From Dechloromonas sp. (GTDB taxonomy: Bacteria > Pseudomonadota > Gammaproteobacteria > Burkholderiales > Rhodocyclaceae): a DNA stretch of 5,748 bases. A program made the position numbers and the translations under genes. This document shows, piece after piece, positions 1 to 5,748 of this stretch (its first letter is position 1; each line of letters begins with the position of its first letter). Location of the stretch: assembly GCA_017302355.1 (NCBI GenBank), contig JAFLDQ010000196.1, positions 1-5,748 on the forward strand. Direction: 5' to 3'. The notes under the pieces were generated by a model that was given only the letters and a program-made list of their open reading frames with translations, ran no database searches and had not been told where the DNA came from.

Positions 1-3000
1 CATTCGCCCTTGTCGGCGGTGAGCGCCTTTTCCAGCCAGGCGCAGGCCTTTTCCCAGTCGCGGATTTCGCCCCAGGCGAGGCCGAGCGCGGCGCCGACGT
101 CGCCGCGCGCCAGCCAGGCGGTGGACTGGCTGGGCGGGATGCGGGCCAGGCGACGGGCGATGCGGCCACCGCCTTCGTCGTGGCTGCCGGCGCGCAGGTC
201 GGCGGCCAGGTTTTCCAGTTCGGCGACCAGCTCGTGCGGCGTCCCGAAATTCGGCCAGCTCCGTTGCACCGCGCCACCCTCGCGGTGGAAGCGGAAATCG
301 GGGTCGCCGTAGCACTGGTAGGCGCCCCAGGTATTGACGTCCGGGCAGCGCGTCCACACGTCTTCGCGGGCGGCGCGTACCGCCTCGCCGAAGGGCTCGC
401 CGGCCAGCATGCCGCGGTAGAAGGTGGCGGCGAAGGCCTGCCCGGCGCGGTCGTCGACGGCCCAGCCGGCGGCGATGACGGCGCGCACGCCCATGCGGAT
501 GAATTCCTCGCCGAGGTTGGCGGCCAGCCCGAGGCGGTCGAGGTCGCGCGCACCATCGACGCGGCCGAGATGGCAGCAGTTGATGAAGACCAGTTCGGGC
601 ACGAAGCGCATCTGGGCGATGTCGCCGGGGGTCAGGAAACTGGCGGCGCCGATCACCATGCCGGAAATCCTGCCCGCGTCCGGCCCGCCGCTGCGCGCGA
701 ATTCGTGGACGCCGTGGCCAGCGAGGTGGAGGATGCGCCAGCTATCCTTGTGCAGGGCTTCCATGATCGGCGTTGCCGCCTGGTCGATACAGTCGCTGAC
801 GTCGTAGCCGGCGGCGGCGAGTTGCTCGGCGACCTGCCGCGCCTCCTCGCGCGCCCCGGGCAGGTCGGCAAATTCCGGCGCGCCGGCGAGGTCGGGGTTG
901 CCGATGATCAGTGCGGTATTGACCGAGCCATGTAGCGGCCGCTGACGAAATTCGAGGGTGCGGAACTGGCGCACGCAGCCGGCAGCCACGGCCGGCGGCC
1001 GTTCGCCGGTGGCCCAGCGGTTTTCCAGCAGTTCCCACGGATAGCGCGCCGAGTGCCGGTCGACCATGAGGACCAGGTTGCCTTGCTGCGCCGATTGTTC
1101 GCGCAGGCGCAGCGGCAGCAGCATTTCGAACAGCGTCTTGGCGACTTCCGAATTCTGTCCGGTATCGCGGCTGGCGATGCGCACGAAGCTGTCGACCAAG
1201 GCAAGCTGCCCGGTGGCCAGGGTTTCCTCGGCGCGCGCCCGGTCGGTGGTGAACACGAAGCGCAGGCGCCCGCTATCCTCGAAGATCTCCAGCCGCTGGT
1301 ACCACTCGGGCGCCTCGGCGAAGCGCACCCGCCGGCGCCCGGCCTGGCCGGACTCGACGGCGCCGGCCGGCCAGCGCACGGCAGCGGCCAGCGCCGCGTT
1401 CTGCAGGACGCGGGTCAAGGCGTCGGCGGCCAGGATGGCGACGTCCTCATAGAGTTCGAGGAATTCGAGGTGGTCGATCAGCACCCGCCCGTCGAGTTCC
1501 AGTTCGGCGAGACGGCGGTTGGCGGCGACCGCGGCACGCAGGATGGCTTCCAGCGCATCGCCGACCGGCAGGCCGCCGGCGCCGGTGCCGATCAGCAGGC
1601 AGGTGACCGCCGCCGAGCGCGGCCGGCCGTCGTCGCCGAAGCGCTTGTCCGGCCAGCGGACGACATCGAGCGCGAAATCGAGCAGGGCGACGCGCAGCGA
1701 TTCCTCGAGTTGGCCTGGACTCAGCCCGCCGACCTGGCCGAGGCCGACGACGATGGCGCCGGCGGGCCTGGCCTGCGCCGACTCGTTGAGGACGACCGCA
1801 TGAGTGCCGAGCGGGCCGGGGTAGATGCCGAGGTCGACGCGGCGGGTGAGGGCGCCGCCCAGTTGCTGGTCGAGCGCAGCTTCGGCGCTGACCACGGTGT
1901 CGCCCTGGTAATGGCCGACGACGACCGGGTGCCGGGCATAGGCCAGGCTGCCGTGGCGGATGGCGACCTCGATCGTCGGCGCCGGGCGCGTCTCCGTTTC
2001 CGCGGCCAGCGGGCCGCTGCCGGAAAAGCCGAAGCCGGCGATGTCGACCGCAGCCGGGATGCTGTCGGTCGGCGGCGCCGGCGGCAGCACGAAACGTTCG
2101 GCGGCGCTGGCGGCGCGCGTGCGGGCCGGCGGACTCGGCGGCAGCAGCGCGGTCTGGCCATTGACCAGCAGGTTGAGGTAGCCGGGAAAGGCTTTGGGCT
2201 GGGCGCACAGCGCGTCGTGCGCGGTGTCCTCGACGTACCAGGTCGGCACGCCGGCGAGGCGGCCCGATTGCCAGCTCACGGTGCCGTCGCCATCGCGCGT
2301 GGCGATGAATTCGAGGCGCTTGCGCTCCGGAGGCCACCAGTCGTTGCCGGCGCTCAACTGGTAATCGATCACGGTGGCCGGCTGGCAGCCGGCGACATAG
2401 ACCATGTGGCGCGGATCGGGCGGCGCCGCGCGCAGCAGCTTCCAGGTCGCCGCCGCTTCCTGCAGCACGGCCGGCTCGGCAGTCGGCCAGGCGGCGGCGG
2501 TTTCCTGGCGCAGCTTCTGCCAGCGGCCGGCGTCGGCGAAGTCGGGGTCGTCCGGGGCGAAGGGCAGCAGTTCGAGCAGGCCGGGGTAGCGCGCAACGAG
2601 GCCGATGATCTGGTCGGTGCTCTGGGTGATGTCGAGCAGCGCGAGCTTGGATTGCGTCGGGTTGCAGCCGGTCAGCCAGCGCACCGCCTCGTAGGAGCCG
2701 AGGTTCGGCGTGCCGAGCATCAGGAAGCGGCTGCCCGGCAGGCGGATGATGCGCTGCCACAGCGCGCCGCCGGCGCCGCCGTCGGCGATCATCGCGCGCA
2801 CGACGAGGCCGCCCATCGAATGGGCGACCAGGCGCACCGGCTGGCCATCGCGTTCGGCCTGGGTGACCAGCGGTTCGAGGGTGTTGGCGAGGCGGGCGGC
2901 GGCCTTGCGCACCGAGTGGCGCCAGTCGTAGGGGAAGACCTCGACCTGGTGGCTGCGCGCCAGGAATTCGACCAGCGGTCCGTAGAACTGGTCGACCAGC

Positions 3001-4730
3001 CCGACCGGCGCGATGCCGTCGCGGCCCATCGCCAGGCGCTTGAGGCCGCCCTTGAGCAACGCCCAGTAGTCGAGCCAGACGGTGTCGTCGTCGACGCGCA
3101 ACTGGCTGCCCATCGTGCCGGGCAGCACGACGGCAATCGGCCGCGGCTTGCCGTCGCCGCGGCTGCGGGCGACGGCGGCCTGGCAGCGGGGGGCGGCCGG
3201 GGCGGCGTCGACGAGGGGCACGAAGCCGCCGCTGTCGCCGTCGGCGCGGGCCAGCCCGGCCTGCAGCCAGCGCACGCTCTGCTCGTTGGTGAAGTAGCGG
3301 AAGTGATTGACCTTCGGCCCCGCGTCCTTGCGCAGGCGGGCGCCGTTGGCCGGGCGCGGCAGGCCGCCGCTCATCGAGCCGGTATCGACGACGAGGTCGT
3401 GCTCGTTGCCGTAGAACCAGTCGCTGGCCAGCACCTTGAGCGTGTTCCACAGGCCGTCGCCGCCCTCGATGTCGCCGGCGATGACGCTGAGGTCTGCGTC
3501 GCTGACCAGCTCAGGCGTGGCGTTGAGCAGCCGGGTCAGCGCCGAGCCGGGCATCATCGCTTCGAGGCCGGGCAGCGTGCGCGGGTCGGTACGTTCCTTG
3601 ACGACGGCGAGCAGGAAGTCGACCCCGTCGGCGAAGAGGCCGTTGCCGGTTGCCGCGTCGACGACGTGGTCGAGCACCGACAGCCAGCGGTCGAGACGGC
3701 CGGAGGCGAGCGTCGTGCCGCGCGCCGGGCAGGCGACGCGGACGAAGCGCGCGACGCGCAGTTTCTTGCTGCCGAGCAGCGCGACCAGTTCGAGCAGGCG
3801 CTGGCGGTCGGCATCGTAGGCGTCGTCGCGCTCCCTGGCCGCGGCGTCGGCCAGCGGCGACAGGCCGAGCTGCGGCGCCAGCGTGCGGTCGGCGGCGAAC
3901 AGGGTGTGCAGGCGTTCGGGAGTCAGCACCTCGGCGAGCCGGGCGCAGCCGGCGAGGGCGAGCACCTCGCCGACCAGTCCGCCGCGCGAATGGCTGACCA
4001 GATGCACTTCGGCGCCGTCCGGCAGGCGCCGGGCGAGGGCGAGGGCGTTGGCGATCGGGCTCTCGGTCAGCGTCCGGTGTTCGAGGGCGTAGACGCGGTC
4101 GCCGTAGGCCGGGGCGAGCGCCGCGCGCAGGCGGGCGCCCTCGGCGTTGGCGGCGTCCCACAGCTTGCCGAAGCTGCCCTCGCTGCTCGACGCCGTGCCG
4201 TGCAGGAAGACCAGCAGCGGCCCCTGGCCGGCGGCGATCGTTTCGGCGTCGGGAACGGCGTGCAGGCGGAAGGCGCTGGTCAGGTCGAGGCGGTAGAGGC
4301 CGGGCGGGTGGCCGCCGAGCTGTCTCTCCTCGAAGGCCTTGCCCAGCTTGCGGGCGGAGGCTCCGGCGACATCGATGCCGAAGAAATCGAGGACGCGGAT
4401 CGCCAGCCCGGCCATGCCGCGCTCGCTGCCGCTCGCCCGTTGCGGCGTCAGGCGCGAGAATTCCCAGGCTCCATCGCCCGCGCCGCCATCGCCCCGGCTC
4501 CCGGCCGGCGGCGTTCCGTATTCGCGGGTCAGGTCGTCGACCCGGCTCCACAGCACGAAGCCGTTGTCGAGTTCGACGCGGACCGGGGTGTCGCCGGCGA
4601 CCTCGATCTCGTCGTCGGCGCCATCCCGGGCAGCGCCGGGAATCAGCCGGTGGGTCGGCGTCAGGCCGCCCGGCTTGCGACCGTGAATATCGCTCAGGGT
4701 GCCGCGAATCTTGTACAGGCGCTGGGACAT
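1..4730 (-). CDS. Giant multidomain protein: two alpha/beta-hydrolases, CHAT protease, TPR start (C-terminus beyond window)
   Basis: At least 1576 codons from the ATG at 4730 with no in-frame stop. The last two window bases give TG-, so the next codon is Cys, Trp or a TGA stop. Domains: (a) about 165-490, an alpha/beta-hydrolase with LLVFLHG (oxyanion region, His177-Gly178), nucleophile Ser248 in VSHSRGG, ACPARGTTLA (333-342), acid Asp445 (or Asp449) in HDLVVD and His476 in VNHFRYF; (b) about 525-850, an LCAT-like hydrolase with PGTMGS (537-542), FPYDWR (599-604), nucleophile Ser638 in AHSMGG, GTPNLGS (673-679), Asp815 in DGDGT and His838 in TAHD; (c) a Pro/Ala-rich linker at 860-917; (d) an unassigned region, 918-1110, with VVVGHYQGD and GAIVVGLG; (e) a CHAT protease at about 1195-1480 with YPWELL (1230-1235), His1339 in LAGHG, Cys1386 in NCCHLG and GDPDF (1475-1479); (f) a TPR match at about 1543-1573. 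No signal peptide or membrane helix is seen, so it is probably cytosolic. Expected roles are ester/lipid hydrolysis and proteolysis; substrates are unknown. The fusion with an upstream metacaspase suggests a regulated toxic or defence effector, which is inference. Confidence 0.93.
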   Translation of the reverse strand, partial: MSQRLYKIRGTLSDIHGRKPGGLTPTHRLIPGAARDGADDEIEVAGDTPVRVELDNGFVLWSRVDDLTREYGTPPAGSRGDGGAGDGAWEFSRLTPQRASGSERGMAGLAIRVLDFFGIDVAGASARKLGKAFEERQLGGHPPGLYRLDLTSAFRLHAVPDAETIAAGQGPLLVFLHGTASSSEGSFGKLWDAANAEGARLRAALAPAYGDRVYALEHRTLTESPIANALALARRLPDGAEVHLVSHSRGGLVGEVLALAGCARLAEVLTPERLHTLFAADRTLAPQLGLSPLADAAARERDDAYDADRQRLLELVALLGSKKLRVARFVRVACPARGTTLASGRLDRWLSVLDHVVDAATGNGLFADGVDFLLAVVKERTDPRTLPGLEAMMPGSALTRLLNATPELVSDADLSVIAGDIEGGDGLWNTLKVLASDWFYGNEHDLVVDTGSMSGGLPRPANGARLRKDAGPKVNHFRYFTNEQSVRWLQAGLARADGDSGGFVPLVDAAPAAPRCQAAVARSRGDGKPRPIAVVLPGTMGSQLRVDDDTVWLDYWALLKGGLKRLAMGRDGIAPVGLVDQFYGPLVEFLARSHQVEVFPYDWRHSVRKAAARLANTLEPLVTQAERDGQPVRLVAHSMGGLVVRAMIADGGAGGALWQRIIRLPGSRFLMLGTPNLGSYEAVRWLTGCNPTQSKLALLDITQSTDQIIGLVARYPGLLELLPFAPDDPDFADAGRWQKLRQETAAAWPTAEPAVLQEAAATWKLLRAAPPDPRHMVYVAGCQPATVIDYQLSAGNDWWPPERKRLEFIATRDGDGTVSWQSGRLAGVPTWYVEDTAHDALCAQPKAFPGYLNLLVNGQTALLPPSPPARTRAASAAERFVLPPAPPTDSIPAAVDIAGFGFSGSGPLAAETETRPAPTIEVAIRHGSLAYARHPVVVGHYQGDTVVSAEAALDQQLGGALTRRVDLGIYPGPLGTHAVVLNESAQARPAGAIVVGLGQVGGLSPGQLEESLRVALLDFALDVVRWPDKRFGDDGRPRSAAVTCLLIGTGAGGLPVGDALEAILRAAVAANRRLAELELDGRVLIDHLEFLELYEDVAILAADALTRVLQNAALAAAVRWPAGAVESGQAGRRRVRFAEAPEWYQRLEIFEDSGRLRFVFTTDRARAEETLATGQLALVDSFVRIASRDTGQNSEVAKTLFEMLLPLRLREQSAQQGNLVLMVDRHSARYPWELLENRWATGERPPAVAAGCVRQFRTLEFRQRPLHGSVNTALIIGNPDLAGAPEFADLPGAREEARQVAEQLAAAGYDVSDCIDQAATPIMEALHKDSWRILHLAGHGVHEFARSGGPDAGRISGMVIGAASFLTPGDIAQMRFVPELVFINCCHLGRVDGARDLDRLGLAANLGEEFIRMGVRAVIAAGWAVDDRAGQAFAATFYRGMLAGEPFGEAVRAAREDVWTRCPDVNTWGAYQCYGDPDFRFHREGGAVQRSWPNFGTPHELVAELENLAADLRAGSHDEGGGRIARRLARIPPSQSTAWLARGDVGAALGLAWGEIRDWEKACAWLEKALTADKGE

Positions 4731-4737
4731 GGGGGGT

Positions 4738-4743
4738 TCCTCC
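4738..4743 (-). promoter_or_regulatory. Shine-Dalgarno site of the CHAT/hydrolase gene
   Basis: On the minus strand GGAGGA is followed by ACCCCCC and then the ATG at 4730, giving 7-nt spacing. This is a strong site that decides the start. The whole gap to the metacaspase stop (4731-4769) is 39 nt. It contains no recognisable terminator hairpin or promoter, so the two genes are probably on one transcript. Confidence 0.82.
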
Positions 4744-4769
4744 GAAGGTTGGGGCGGGGCGAGCTGCGC

Positions 4770-5603
4770 TCAGGCGAGAACCTTGCCCTTGCGCGCGCCC
4801 TCGCTGCCGAGAATCTGCGGCGACTGTGGGTAGCTGGCCGACGGAAGGTACTTGACGATGGCCTTGTGCCAGTCGGCGTAGGTGGCGCCTTCCTTCAAGG
4901 CCTTCAGCGCCTTCAGCGCGTAATGGGTGAAGGCGCCGTTGAAGCGGCCGGCGATGCGGGCGTCGTAGCTGTAGTTGTTGGGGCCTTCCTTGCAGCCCGA
5001 GAGCAGCAGGTCGCCGAGCTTGTTCGAGTAGGCGCCGAGCAGCGGCGAGGTGCCGGCGGGCGCGACCATCGTTGTCGCCGGCTTGCCGGCGCGGTCCTTC
5101 GGCAGCAACTTGGCCGGCAGCCAGTTGCCCATCGGCATGAAGCGGGGCCGCGTGTCGGCGTCCTTCTCGGCCTTGGCGGCGCGCGTCACGGTGCCGGAAT
5201 GGCAGCTGTCGGAGATCAGGACGAGGCGCACGCCGGCCTTGCGGGCGCCGAAAATGGCGCGGATTTCGTCGTCGACCAGCGCCGCGCCATTGGTCTGCAG
5301 GTCGTAGGGGCAGAGCGCCTCGTCGAGGCCGTCGGCCTCGTCGCCATCCTCGTCCGGCTGGTAGGTGCCGTGACCGGAGAAGGTGATGACCAGGCTGTCG
5401 CCCTTGTCGGCCGTGCCGATCAGCTCGTTCATGGCCTTGACCATGGCGGCCTTGGTCGCCTGGCCGTCGAGCAGCTTCGCCACCTTGAACCCGCGTGCGG
5501 CGAGGGCGGCGGCCCAGTCGTTGGCGTCGTTGACGCAGCCCTGCAGATCCATGTGGGTGCCGGGGTAGTTGTTGATGCCGATGCAGAGGGCGTTCTTGGC
5601 CAT
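4770..5603 (-). CDS. Metacaspase-like cysteine protease (peptidase C14, caspase-like)
   Basis: A complete 277-aa protein, essentially one caspase-like domain, predicted to cleave proteins with a Cys/His dyad. Visible signatures in order are: the first strand ALCIGINNYPG (5-15); the helix segment GCVNDANDW (22-30); VITFSGHG (72-79) with catalytic His78; the DEALCPYD segment (94-101), which in this family precedes the active-site region; LVLISDSCHSG (127-137) with catalytic Cys134; and the late substrate-pocket region GRFNGAFTHYAL (219-230). Acidic residues at the expected pocket positions (Asp101, Asp132) fit the basic P1 preference (Arg/Lys) known for metacaspases, rather than the Asp preference of animal caspases. 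That specificity is inferred from the family. There is no signal peptide or membrane segment, so it should be cytosolic, and there is no fused adaptor domain, so activation must come from partners, calcium or self-processing. The gene lies 39 nt upstream of the giant CHAT/hydrolase gene on the same strand, which makes that protein the obvious candidate substrate or partner. The fold and dyad are secure; the biological role is not. Confidence 0.93.
   Translation of the reverse strand: MAKNALCIGINNYPGTHMDLQGCVNDANDWAAALAARGFKVAKLLDGQATKAAMVKAMNELIGTADKGDSLVITFSGHGTYQPDEDGDEADGLDEALCPYDLQTNGAALVDDEIRAIFGARKAGVRLVLISDSCHSGTVTRAAKAEKDADTRPRFMPMGNWLPAKLLPKDRAGKPATTMVAPAGTSPLLGAYSNKLGDLLLSGCKEGPNNYSYDARIAGRFNGAFTHYALKALKALKEGATYADWHKAIVKYLPSASYPQSPQILGSEGARKGKVLA
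4893..4919 (-). repeat. Three tandem 9-bp units inside the metacaspase gene
   Basis: Two identical GCGCTGAAG units are followed by a diverged GCCTTGAAG, encoding Ala-Leu-Lys three times (residues 229-237) in the helix after the GAFTHYAL segment. It is in frame and could have arisen by slippage duplication. It lengthens an amphipathic helix and is likely neutral. Confidence 0.6.
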
Positions 5604-5610
5604 GATGGGT

Positions 5611-5616
5611 CTCCTC
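5611..5616 (-). promoter_or_regulatory. Shine-Dalgarno site of the metacaspase gene
   Basis: On the minus strand GAGGAG lies 7 nt before the ATG at 5603, which is near-ideal spacing and fixes that start. The 5604-5667 gap also holds an AGGAG at about 5650 with no ATG or GTG placed to use it. I see no clear -35/-10 pair, operator or hairpin in the gap, so transcription probably comes through from the upstream gene. Confidence 0.8.
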
Positions 5617-5667
5617 GATGGTGGTGTGGCGGATGAAGGTGCGGCTGTCTCCTGATTCCTGTCGTCG

Positions 5668-5748
5668 TTACCAAAGCGCGCGCGTATCCAGCCAGGTGAC
5701 CTGACCGGTACGGCGCGCGACTTCCTTGACCATGTGGGCGGTGCCGCC
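5668..5748 (-). CDS. 3' end of an unidentified upstream gene (partial)
   Basis: The last 26 codons and the TAA stop (5670-5668) of a gene that enters from the right edge. The peptide begins GGTAHMVKEVARRTG and ends QVTWLDTRALW. About 21 of 26 codons end in G or C, matching the neighbouring genes, and the stop lies 64 nt before the next start with a good ribosome site, which is operon-like. The fragment reads as a Gly-Gly-Thr turn, an amphipathic helix and a beta strand, as in the C-terminal end of a Rossmann-type alpha/beta domain. That is only a secondary-structure impression, and I do not recognise the family. It is too short to exclude a chance open frame, since those are common at this GC content. 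If real, it is the first known member of the cluster and could be a sensor or partner of the metacaspase. Confidence 0.55.
   Translation of the reverse strand, partial: GGTAHMVKEVARRTGQVTWLDTRALW

Follow-up and report, generated by a model that had tools for sequence, protein, structure and literature searches.

The window, by which we mean the whole stretch of 5,748 nt analyzed here, encodes on its minus strand a metacaspase-like protease and a large multidomain protein, preceded by the end of a further gene. Its features are as follows:

5668..5748, minus strand: last 26 codons and stop of an upstream gene, translation GGTAHMVKEVARRTGQVTWLDTRALW*
4770..5603, minus strand: metacaspase-like protease of 277 aa with His78/Cys134 (Pfam Peptidase_C14, 1.4e-24)
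3..4730, minus strand: bis-hydrolase/macro-like/CHAT/TPR-S protein, first 1576 residues
3291..4214, minus strand: hydrolase 1 (DUF7379 alpha/beta-hydrolase, Pfam PF24096), residues about 173-480, Ser248/Asp445/His476
2148..3146, minus strand: hydrolase 2 (LCAT/lysosomal phospholipase A2 fold), residues about 529-861, Ser638/Asp815/His838
1386..1982, minus strand: macro-domain/leucyl-aminopeptidase (LAP) N-terminal fold, residues about 917-1115
303..1148, minus strand: CHAT protease, residues 1195-1476, His1339/Cys1386
3..113, minus strand: beginning of the TPR/TPR-S region, the rest of which lies beyond the window (TPR-S in the 98% identical relative P0003)

The upstream gene ends 64 nt before the metacaspase gene (5603-4770), which is followed after 39 nt by the large frame starting at 4730, and the operon-like spacing given in a preliminary description of this DNA is thereby confirmed. 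Since the large frame runs without a stop to the window edge, its 1576 residues are part of a longer protein; P0003, the 98% identical homolog, has 1816 residues and ends in TPR-S. With the window being cut at both ends, the surroundings were read from the loci of relatives. A plus-strand frame at 1053-5636 (1527 aa) was rejected as a gene: it is antisense to both conserved genes and stays open as a by-product of the G+C content of about 70%.

The metacaspase (PF00656, 87.5 bits against a cut-off of 21.4) has GSU0716 and metacaspases as its solved relatives, and the His/Cys dyad proposed for it earlier is conserved across 185 aligned proteins, with C134 present in all 185 and H78 in 184, the remaining one having a gap. 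The CHAT domain (PF12770, 111.8 bits against 24) likewise has its His/Cys dyad. Hydrolase 1 matches PF24096 (108.9 bits against 33), a family whose assignment as an alpha/beta-hydrolase is judged by its catalytic motifs, and hydrolase 2 displays the PF02450 (LCAT) match, the fold and the triad. The Pfam matches and conserved active sites bear out the fusion of two Ser/Asp/His alpha/beta-hydrolases to a CHAT protease that the preliminary description had read, and its guess of membrane-damaging or lipid-modifying hydrolases is in line with the phospholipase fold of hydrolase 2, whose activity is putative. The part between hydrolase 2 and CHAT has the macro fold, which LAP N-terminal domains share; ADP-ribose binding may be considered a candidate function. 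A TPR region had been foreseen and its identity as TPR-S, a domain reportedly described by Burroughs and Aravind in 2020, had not: it is recognized outside the window itself, at residues 1558-1688 of P0003 (PF20308, 51.6 bits against 27.6, 1.5e-13).

With 229 proteins aligned (119 of 120 listed homologs, 109 frames from the loci described below and the window, with some duplicates), all eight catalytic residues of the large protein are kept in at least 228: S248, D445, H476, D815, H838 and H1339 are invariant, S638 is replaced by Cys in one protein and C1386 falls in a gap in another. D445/H476 and D815/H838 were put into their respective triads by motif order. Such conservation, across these 229 proteins and the 185 aligned metacaspases, argues that all four predicted enzymes are under selection for activity. 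A shorter architecture is seen in two frames of 1032 and 1038 aa (G374:C1 and G394:C409), which are 52% identical over about residues 865-1796 only and comprise the macro-like, CHAT and TPR-S parts, the hydrolases not being in that frame.

A contig scan yielded 531 stretches that encode a relative, the best 80 of which gave 76 loci. By tblastn, a metacaspase lies directly 5′ of the hydrolase-CHAT gene in 50 of these, and the other 26, some of them incomplete, have no metacaspase match. Our main family sample comprises 199 genomes from the family of the Azonexus MAG that carries locus L050; here, the hydrolase-CHAT gene occurs in 52 genomes (E <= 1e-50) and metacaspase matches occur in 46 (E <= 1e-25). 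The 33 close metacaspase copies (at least 53% identity) belong to 32 genomes, all of which are among the 52 hydrolase-CHAT carriers; 24 copies lie within 1.5 kb upstream of the hydrolase-CHAT gene on the same strand, and the other nine are distant or on a different contig, still in carrier genomes. Distant metacaspases alone are present in 14 genomes, seven of which are without the hydrolase-CHAT gene. The pairing of the two genes is genuine: the preliminary description had let its model depend on conserved pairing, and this is what the relatives display, in 50/76 loci and in 32/32 genomes with a close copy. Two hydrolase-CHAT genes lie about 2 kb apart in Azotobacter chroococcum (L017), and more distant relatives (33-35% identity) are found on plasmid records from Paracoccus, Ensifer and Azotobacter (H1-H7).

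Genes around the 76 loci were called with a home-made scorer, and because this yielded some shadow frames, placed on the wrong strand, neighbors were counted by tblastn; an HMM recount was set aside as it left out reversed loci (“nospan” in 8/30 and 5/10). An M15 peptidase is encoded directly 3′ of the hydrolase-CHAT gene in 42/76 loci, and 34/76, some of them incomplete, have no endolysin match. The M15 protein of locus L009 is recognized by Pfam Peptidase_M15_3 (26.6 bits against a cut-off of 23.2) and by the PHROG “endolysin” (5.1e-28); a relationship to ChiX was dismissed, the match not being significant (E 0.49). A multi-TM protein, with eight hydrophobic segments in L009 and nine in L050, is matched in 32/76 loci and a SLOG-like domain in 29/76, these matches not always being adjacent to the gene: in L033, L058, L059 and L071 they lie kilobases off or on the opposite strand. 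The peptide encoded at 5748-5668 of the window is similar to the C-terminus encoded by the gene that precedes the metacaspase in L009 and other loci. In the closest loci, this C-terminal region is part of a TIR-like/TPR-S protein; the long form of this protein combines a TIR-like N-terminus (PADLOC TIR effector, 6.1e-7) with TPR-S. We take its conserved C-terminal domain to be SLOG-like from the motif pattern; neither this domain nor the multi-TM protein returned a convincing solved relative by sequence or a Pfam family. Hydrophobic membrane segments were found in none of the metacaspase, P0003, two M15 proteins and the upstream protein of L009. The outer neighbors of the operon vary between loci.

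LCAT-type folds serve lipid remodeling too, which might suggest housekeeping lipid or peptide metabolism under regulatory proteolysis; we regard this as very improbable, given the patchy distribution, the variable outer neighbors and partners of sensor-like, protease and endolysin-type character. We tentatively see the window genes as the core of an operon, of five genes in the closest loci, that would constitute a regulated self-lysis module.

The closest of the 76 loci, L050 (91% identity), connects this operon to a contractile injection system (eCIS): divergent from the operon are genes for Pvc16, sheath, tube, spike, gp25, tape measure, AAA ATPase and an eCIS_core protein. The complete chromosome with L043 has the same layout by frame calls; the eCIS cluster was read in these two genomes, the window being too short to show its own eCIS neighborhood. 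The hydrolase-CHAT gene has a sheath-family match no more than about 13 kb away in 14/76 loci (L002, L003, L004, L007, L008, L009, L018, L021, L041, L042, L043, L050, L070 and L073), against fewer than one linked case expected, by our own arithmetic, from random placement in 4 Mb; some sheath-family match, phage ones included, is present in 47/75 genomes. The sheath-linked loci are 65-91% identical to the query, and it is only at this degree of relatedness that operon and eCIS are seen physically linked. Pvc16 is also present on the short contig of L063, and a short sheath match at L001 was left uncounted, the genome concerned yielding no sheath-family match. In G050:C26 and G043:C1, what by eye look like fba and transketolase genes flank the cassette at different ends, at the operon end in one genome and at the eCIS end in the other, an arrangement suggestive of inversion of the entire cassette. 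The eCIS_core protein that ends the injection cluster (L077:8124-11309, minus strand) shows, towards its C-terminus, a weak match to DNA/RNA non-specific endonucleases that stays under the curated cut-off.

The divergent order of operon and eCIS genes could alternatively mean that the operon arms, anchors or fires the eCIS itself or processes its cargo, the proteases maturing eCIS proteins and the lipases and M15 peptidase opening the envelope locally for action on the producer or its neighbors. A passage of a Streptomyces study, according to which the eCIS is required for developmental cell death (PMC10020575), would suit such a role. We consider it improbable, because operon and eCIS are not found together outside close relatives and 17 of the 52 main-family carriers are without eCIS_core.

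At the level of whole genomes, eCIS_core is present in 47/199 members of the main family and coincides with the hydrolase-CHAT gene in 35, against 12.3 expected (p 2.6e-16); it is thus found in 35/52 carriers and 12/147 non-carriers. The 17 carriers and 12 eCIS_core genomes that lack the respective partner count against a strict dependence. Carriers with a close metacaspase have eCIS_core more often (27/32) than those without (8/20; p 0.0019). Cas1, used as a control and present in 114/199 genomes, has no link to hydrolase-CHAT or eCIS_core (p 0.33 and 0.74). The genomes of carriers are larger (median 4.3 Mb, compared with 3.35 Mb for non-carriers, with sizes for 102/147 of the latter), which weakens the association as evidence; nevertheless, the link holds among genomes of at least 4.2 Mb with a recorded size, where eCIS_core is found in 27/33 carriers and 6/23 non-carriers. 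Two further families, for which the statistics are without tree control and without a Cas1 control, show the same tendency. Among 146 genomes from the same family as the Lamprocystis purpurea record, there are 19 carriers and 26 eCIS_core genomes, with both in nine against 3.4 expected (p 0.0013; 9/19 carriers and 17/127 others with eCIS_core); among 309 genomes of the Rhodoferax sp. BLA1 family, 49 carriers and 47 eCIS_core genomes give 17 with both against 7.5 expected (p 1.5e-4; 17/49 carriers and 30/260 others). The association is weaker in both than in the main family, and restricting eCIS_core to matches stronger than 1e-20 makes little change.

Kinship was controlled for in the main family with a single marker, rpoB, which was matched in 161/199 genomes; the tree holds 119 genomes, with carriers and eCIS genomes sampled first (43/52 carriers and 36/47 eCIS_core genomes), so that those with neither gene are under-sampled, which should weaken the association. 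In our own implementation of a correlated-evolution test, a kind of test that can be liberal, the dependent model beats the independent one for hydrolase-CHAT and eCIS_core (LR 20.65, p 3.7e-4) as well as for metacaspase and eCIS_core (LR 30.1, p 4.7e-6), and the Cas1 controls on the same tree show no gain from the dependent model (LR 1.7 and 1.2). When eCIS was simulated on the tree, the observed association was reached in 7/20000 runs for hydrolase-CHAT and never for the metacaspase. Of four sister pairs differing in the hydrolase-CHAT gene, one has the predicted eCIS difference and three have no eCIS_core, a point against the dependence.

Our best reading of these observations, held tentatively and somewhat short of an even chance, is that the operon serves as a suicide module for regulated self-lysis and is tied to injection systems; it is preferred because a lysis module serving eCIS best joins the anatomy and the co-occurrence. 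The signal, cleavage, lysis and particle release are steps that we infer. A stress signal, probably nucleotide-derived, would be sensed by the TIR-like/TPR-S upstream protein together with two parts of the large protein, the macro-like and the TPR-S one. The metacaspase and CHAT domain would then be activated and would turn the pair of fused lipases, of which hydrolase 2 has a phospholipase A2 fold, against the membrane of their own cell. Through the membrane damage, perhaps with help from the multi-TM protein, the M15 endolysin would gain access to peptidoglycan, and the cell would burst; the module would be co-selected with eCIS, whose particles are assembled in the cytoplasm and reportedly freed by the bursting of the producer. 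Lipases, an endolysin-type enzyme and two proteases, all without a membrane segment, fit a cytosolic death program. Against the self-lysis reading stand the loci without a metacaspase or endolysin match. A self-lysis role, if true, would link bacterial caspase homologs to lytic cell death. A narrower version is possible but rather doubtful: the operon would be a lysis cassette under caspase control and dedicated to releasing cytoplasmic contractile injection particles, with the fused phospholipases set free by metacaspase and CHAT and the endolysin finishing the process. If true, this would be the bacterial equivalent, in its logic, of lytic cell death triggered by caspases.

To our knowledge, the exit route of many eCIS particles from the producer is not settled. 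Passages in two sources have the particles assembled in the cytoplasm and freed on lysis of the producer (PMC10598620, PMC8894135); a point against this comes from a section of the Streptomyces study, where eCIS sheaths are argued not to exit by generalized lysis (PMC10020575). With its sensor-like gene, its two proteases and two lipases and its endolysin-type partner, the operon, which co-occurs with such systems beyond expectation in three families, makes both eCIS release and its trigger testable by deletion.

We consider a defense role nearly as likely as the self-lysis module. As a general abortive-infection or programmed-death system, a conjecture that we would not favor by itself, the operon would respond to phage through a nucleotide signal that activates caspase and CHAT for lipase-mediated death, and the co-occurrence with eCIS would stem from the shared lifestyle of large-genome bacteria. 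The TIR-like, TPR-S and caspase parts, the patchy presence (52/199 genomes), the distant relatives on plasmids and the larger genomes of carriers all speak for it, as does the caspase with a neighboring alpha/beta-hydrolase gene that part of one study describes in VMAP conflict systems (PMC7159879). Conversely, Cas1, another defense marker, is unassociated, the eCIS association holds in the tree-aware test and an endolysin is an unexpected partner; apart from “caspase” and the TIR effector, PADLOC matches only BovA, weakly, and neither PADLOC nor NCBIfam assigns the operon to a named system.

The pairing of caspase and hydrolase thus has precedent in the VMAP MoxR-vWA ternary conflict systems, where, in the portion of Kaur et al. 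2020 that concerns them, the caspase-superfamily domain and neighboring alpha/beta-hydrolase are proposed to act jointly (PMC7159879). Unlike in those systems as described there, the two hydrolases here share a polypeptide with a second protease, of CHAT type, and with macro-like and TPR-S parts, and have an endolysin-type neighbor; the words “TPR-S” and “CHAT” do not occur in the main text of that paper by word count. The fused lipases set the large protein apart from Craspase (TPR-CHAT/Csx29), DdvA and separase, and in contrast to lysosomal phospholipase A2/LCAT, hydrolase 2 (21% identity, putative activity) is part of a bacterial fusion with no predicted membrane segment. The holin and lysin genes of R-tailocins, in a passage of PMC10598620, resemble the present arrangement in that a lytic peptidase and a membrane protein lie near a contractile-tail locus; the operon differs from them in its extra lipases and proteases, its sensor-like gene and its separate organization, and in having a sheath gene nearby in only 14/76 loci. 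Word searches found no paper, among those covered, with “contractile injection” and “metacaspase” together, and within these searches no printed account of the fusion to a second protease, of the endolysin-type neighbor or of the eCIS tie came up; “caspase” and “CHAT” are absent by word search from the main text of the eCIS toxin surveys PMC8213781 and PMC11297309. The domains, active sites, spacing and pairing of the preliminary description stand, the proteolytic relay that it proposed is a putative model, and it did not foresee the macro/LAP N-terminal fold, TPR-S, the sensor-like gene, the endolysin-type neighbor and the tie to eCIS.

Metacaspases at large may track injection systems: among the main-family genomes with a distant metacaspase and no hydrolase-CHAT gene, eCIS_core is present in 4/7 (G082, G146, G192 and G226), against 8/140 with neither gene. 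In these four genomes, the metacaspase is, by its position, not near the eCIS_core gene.
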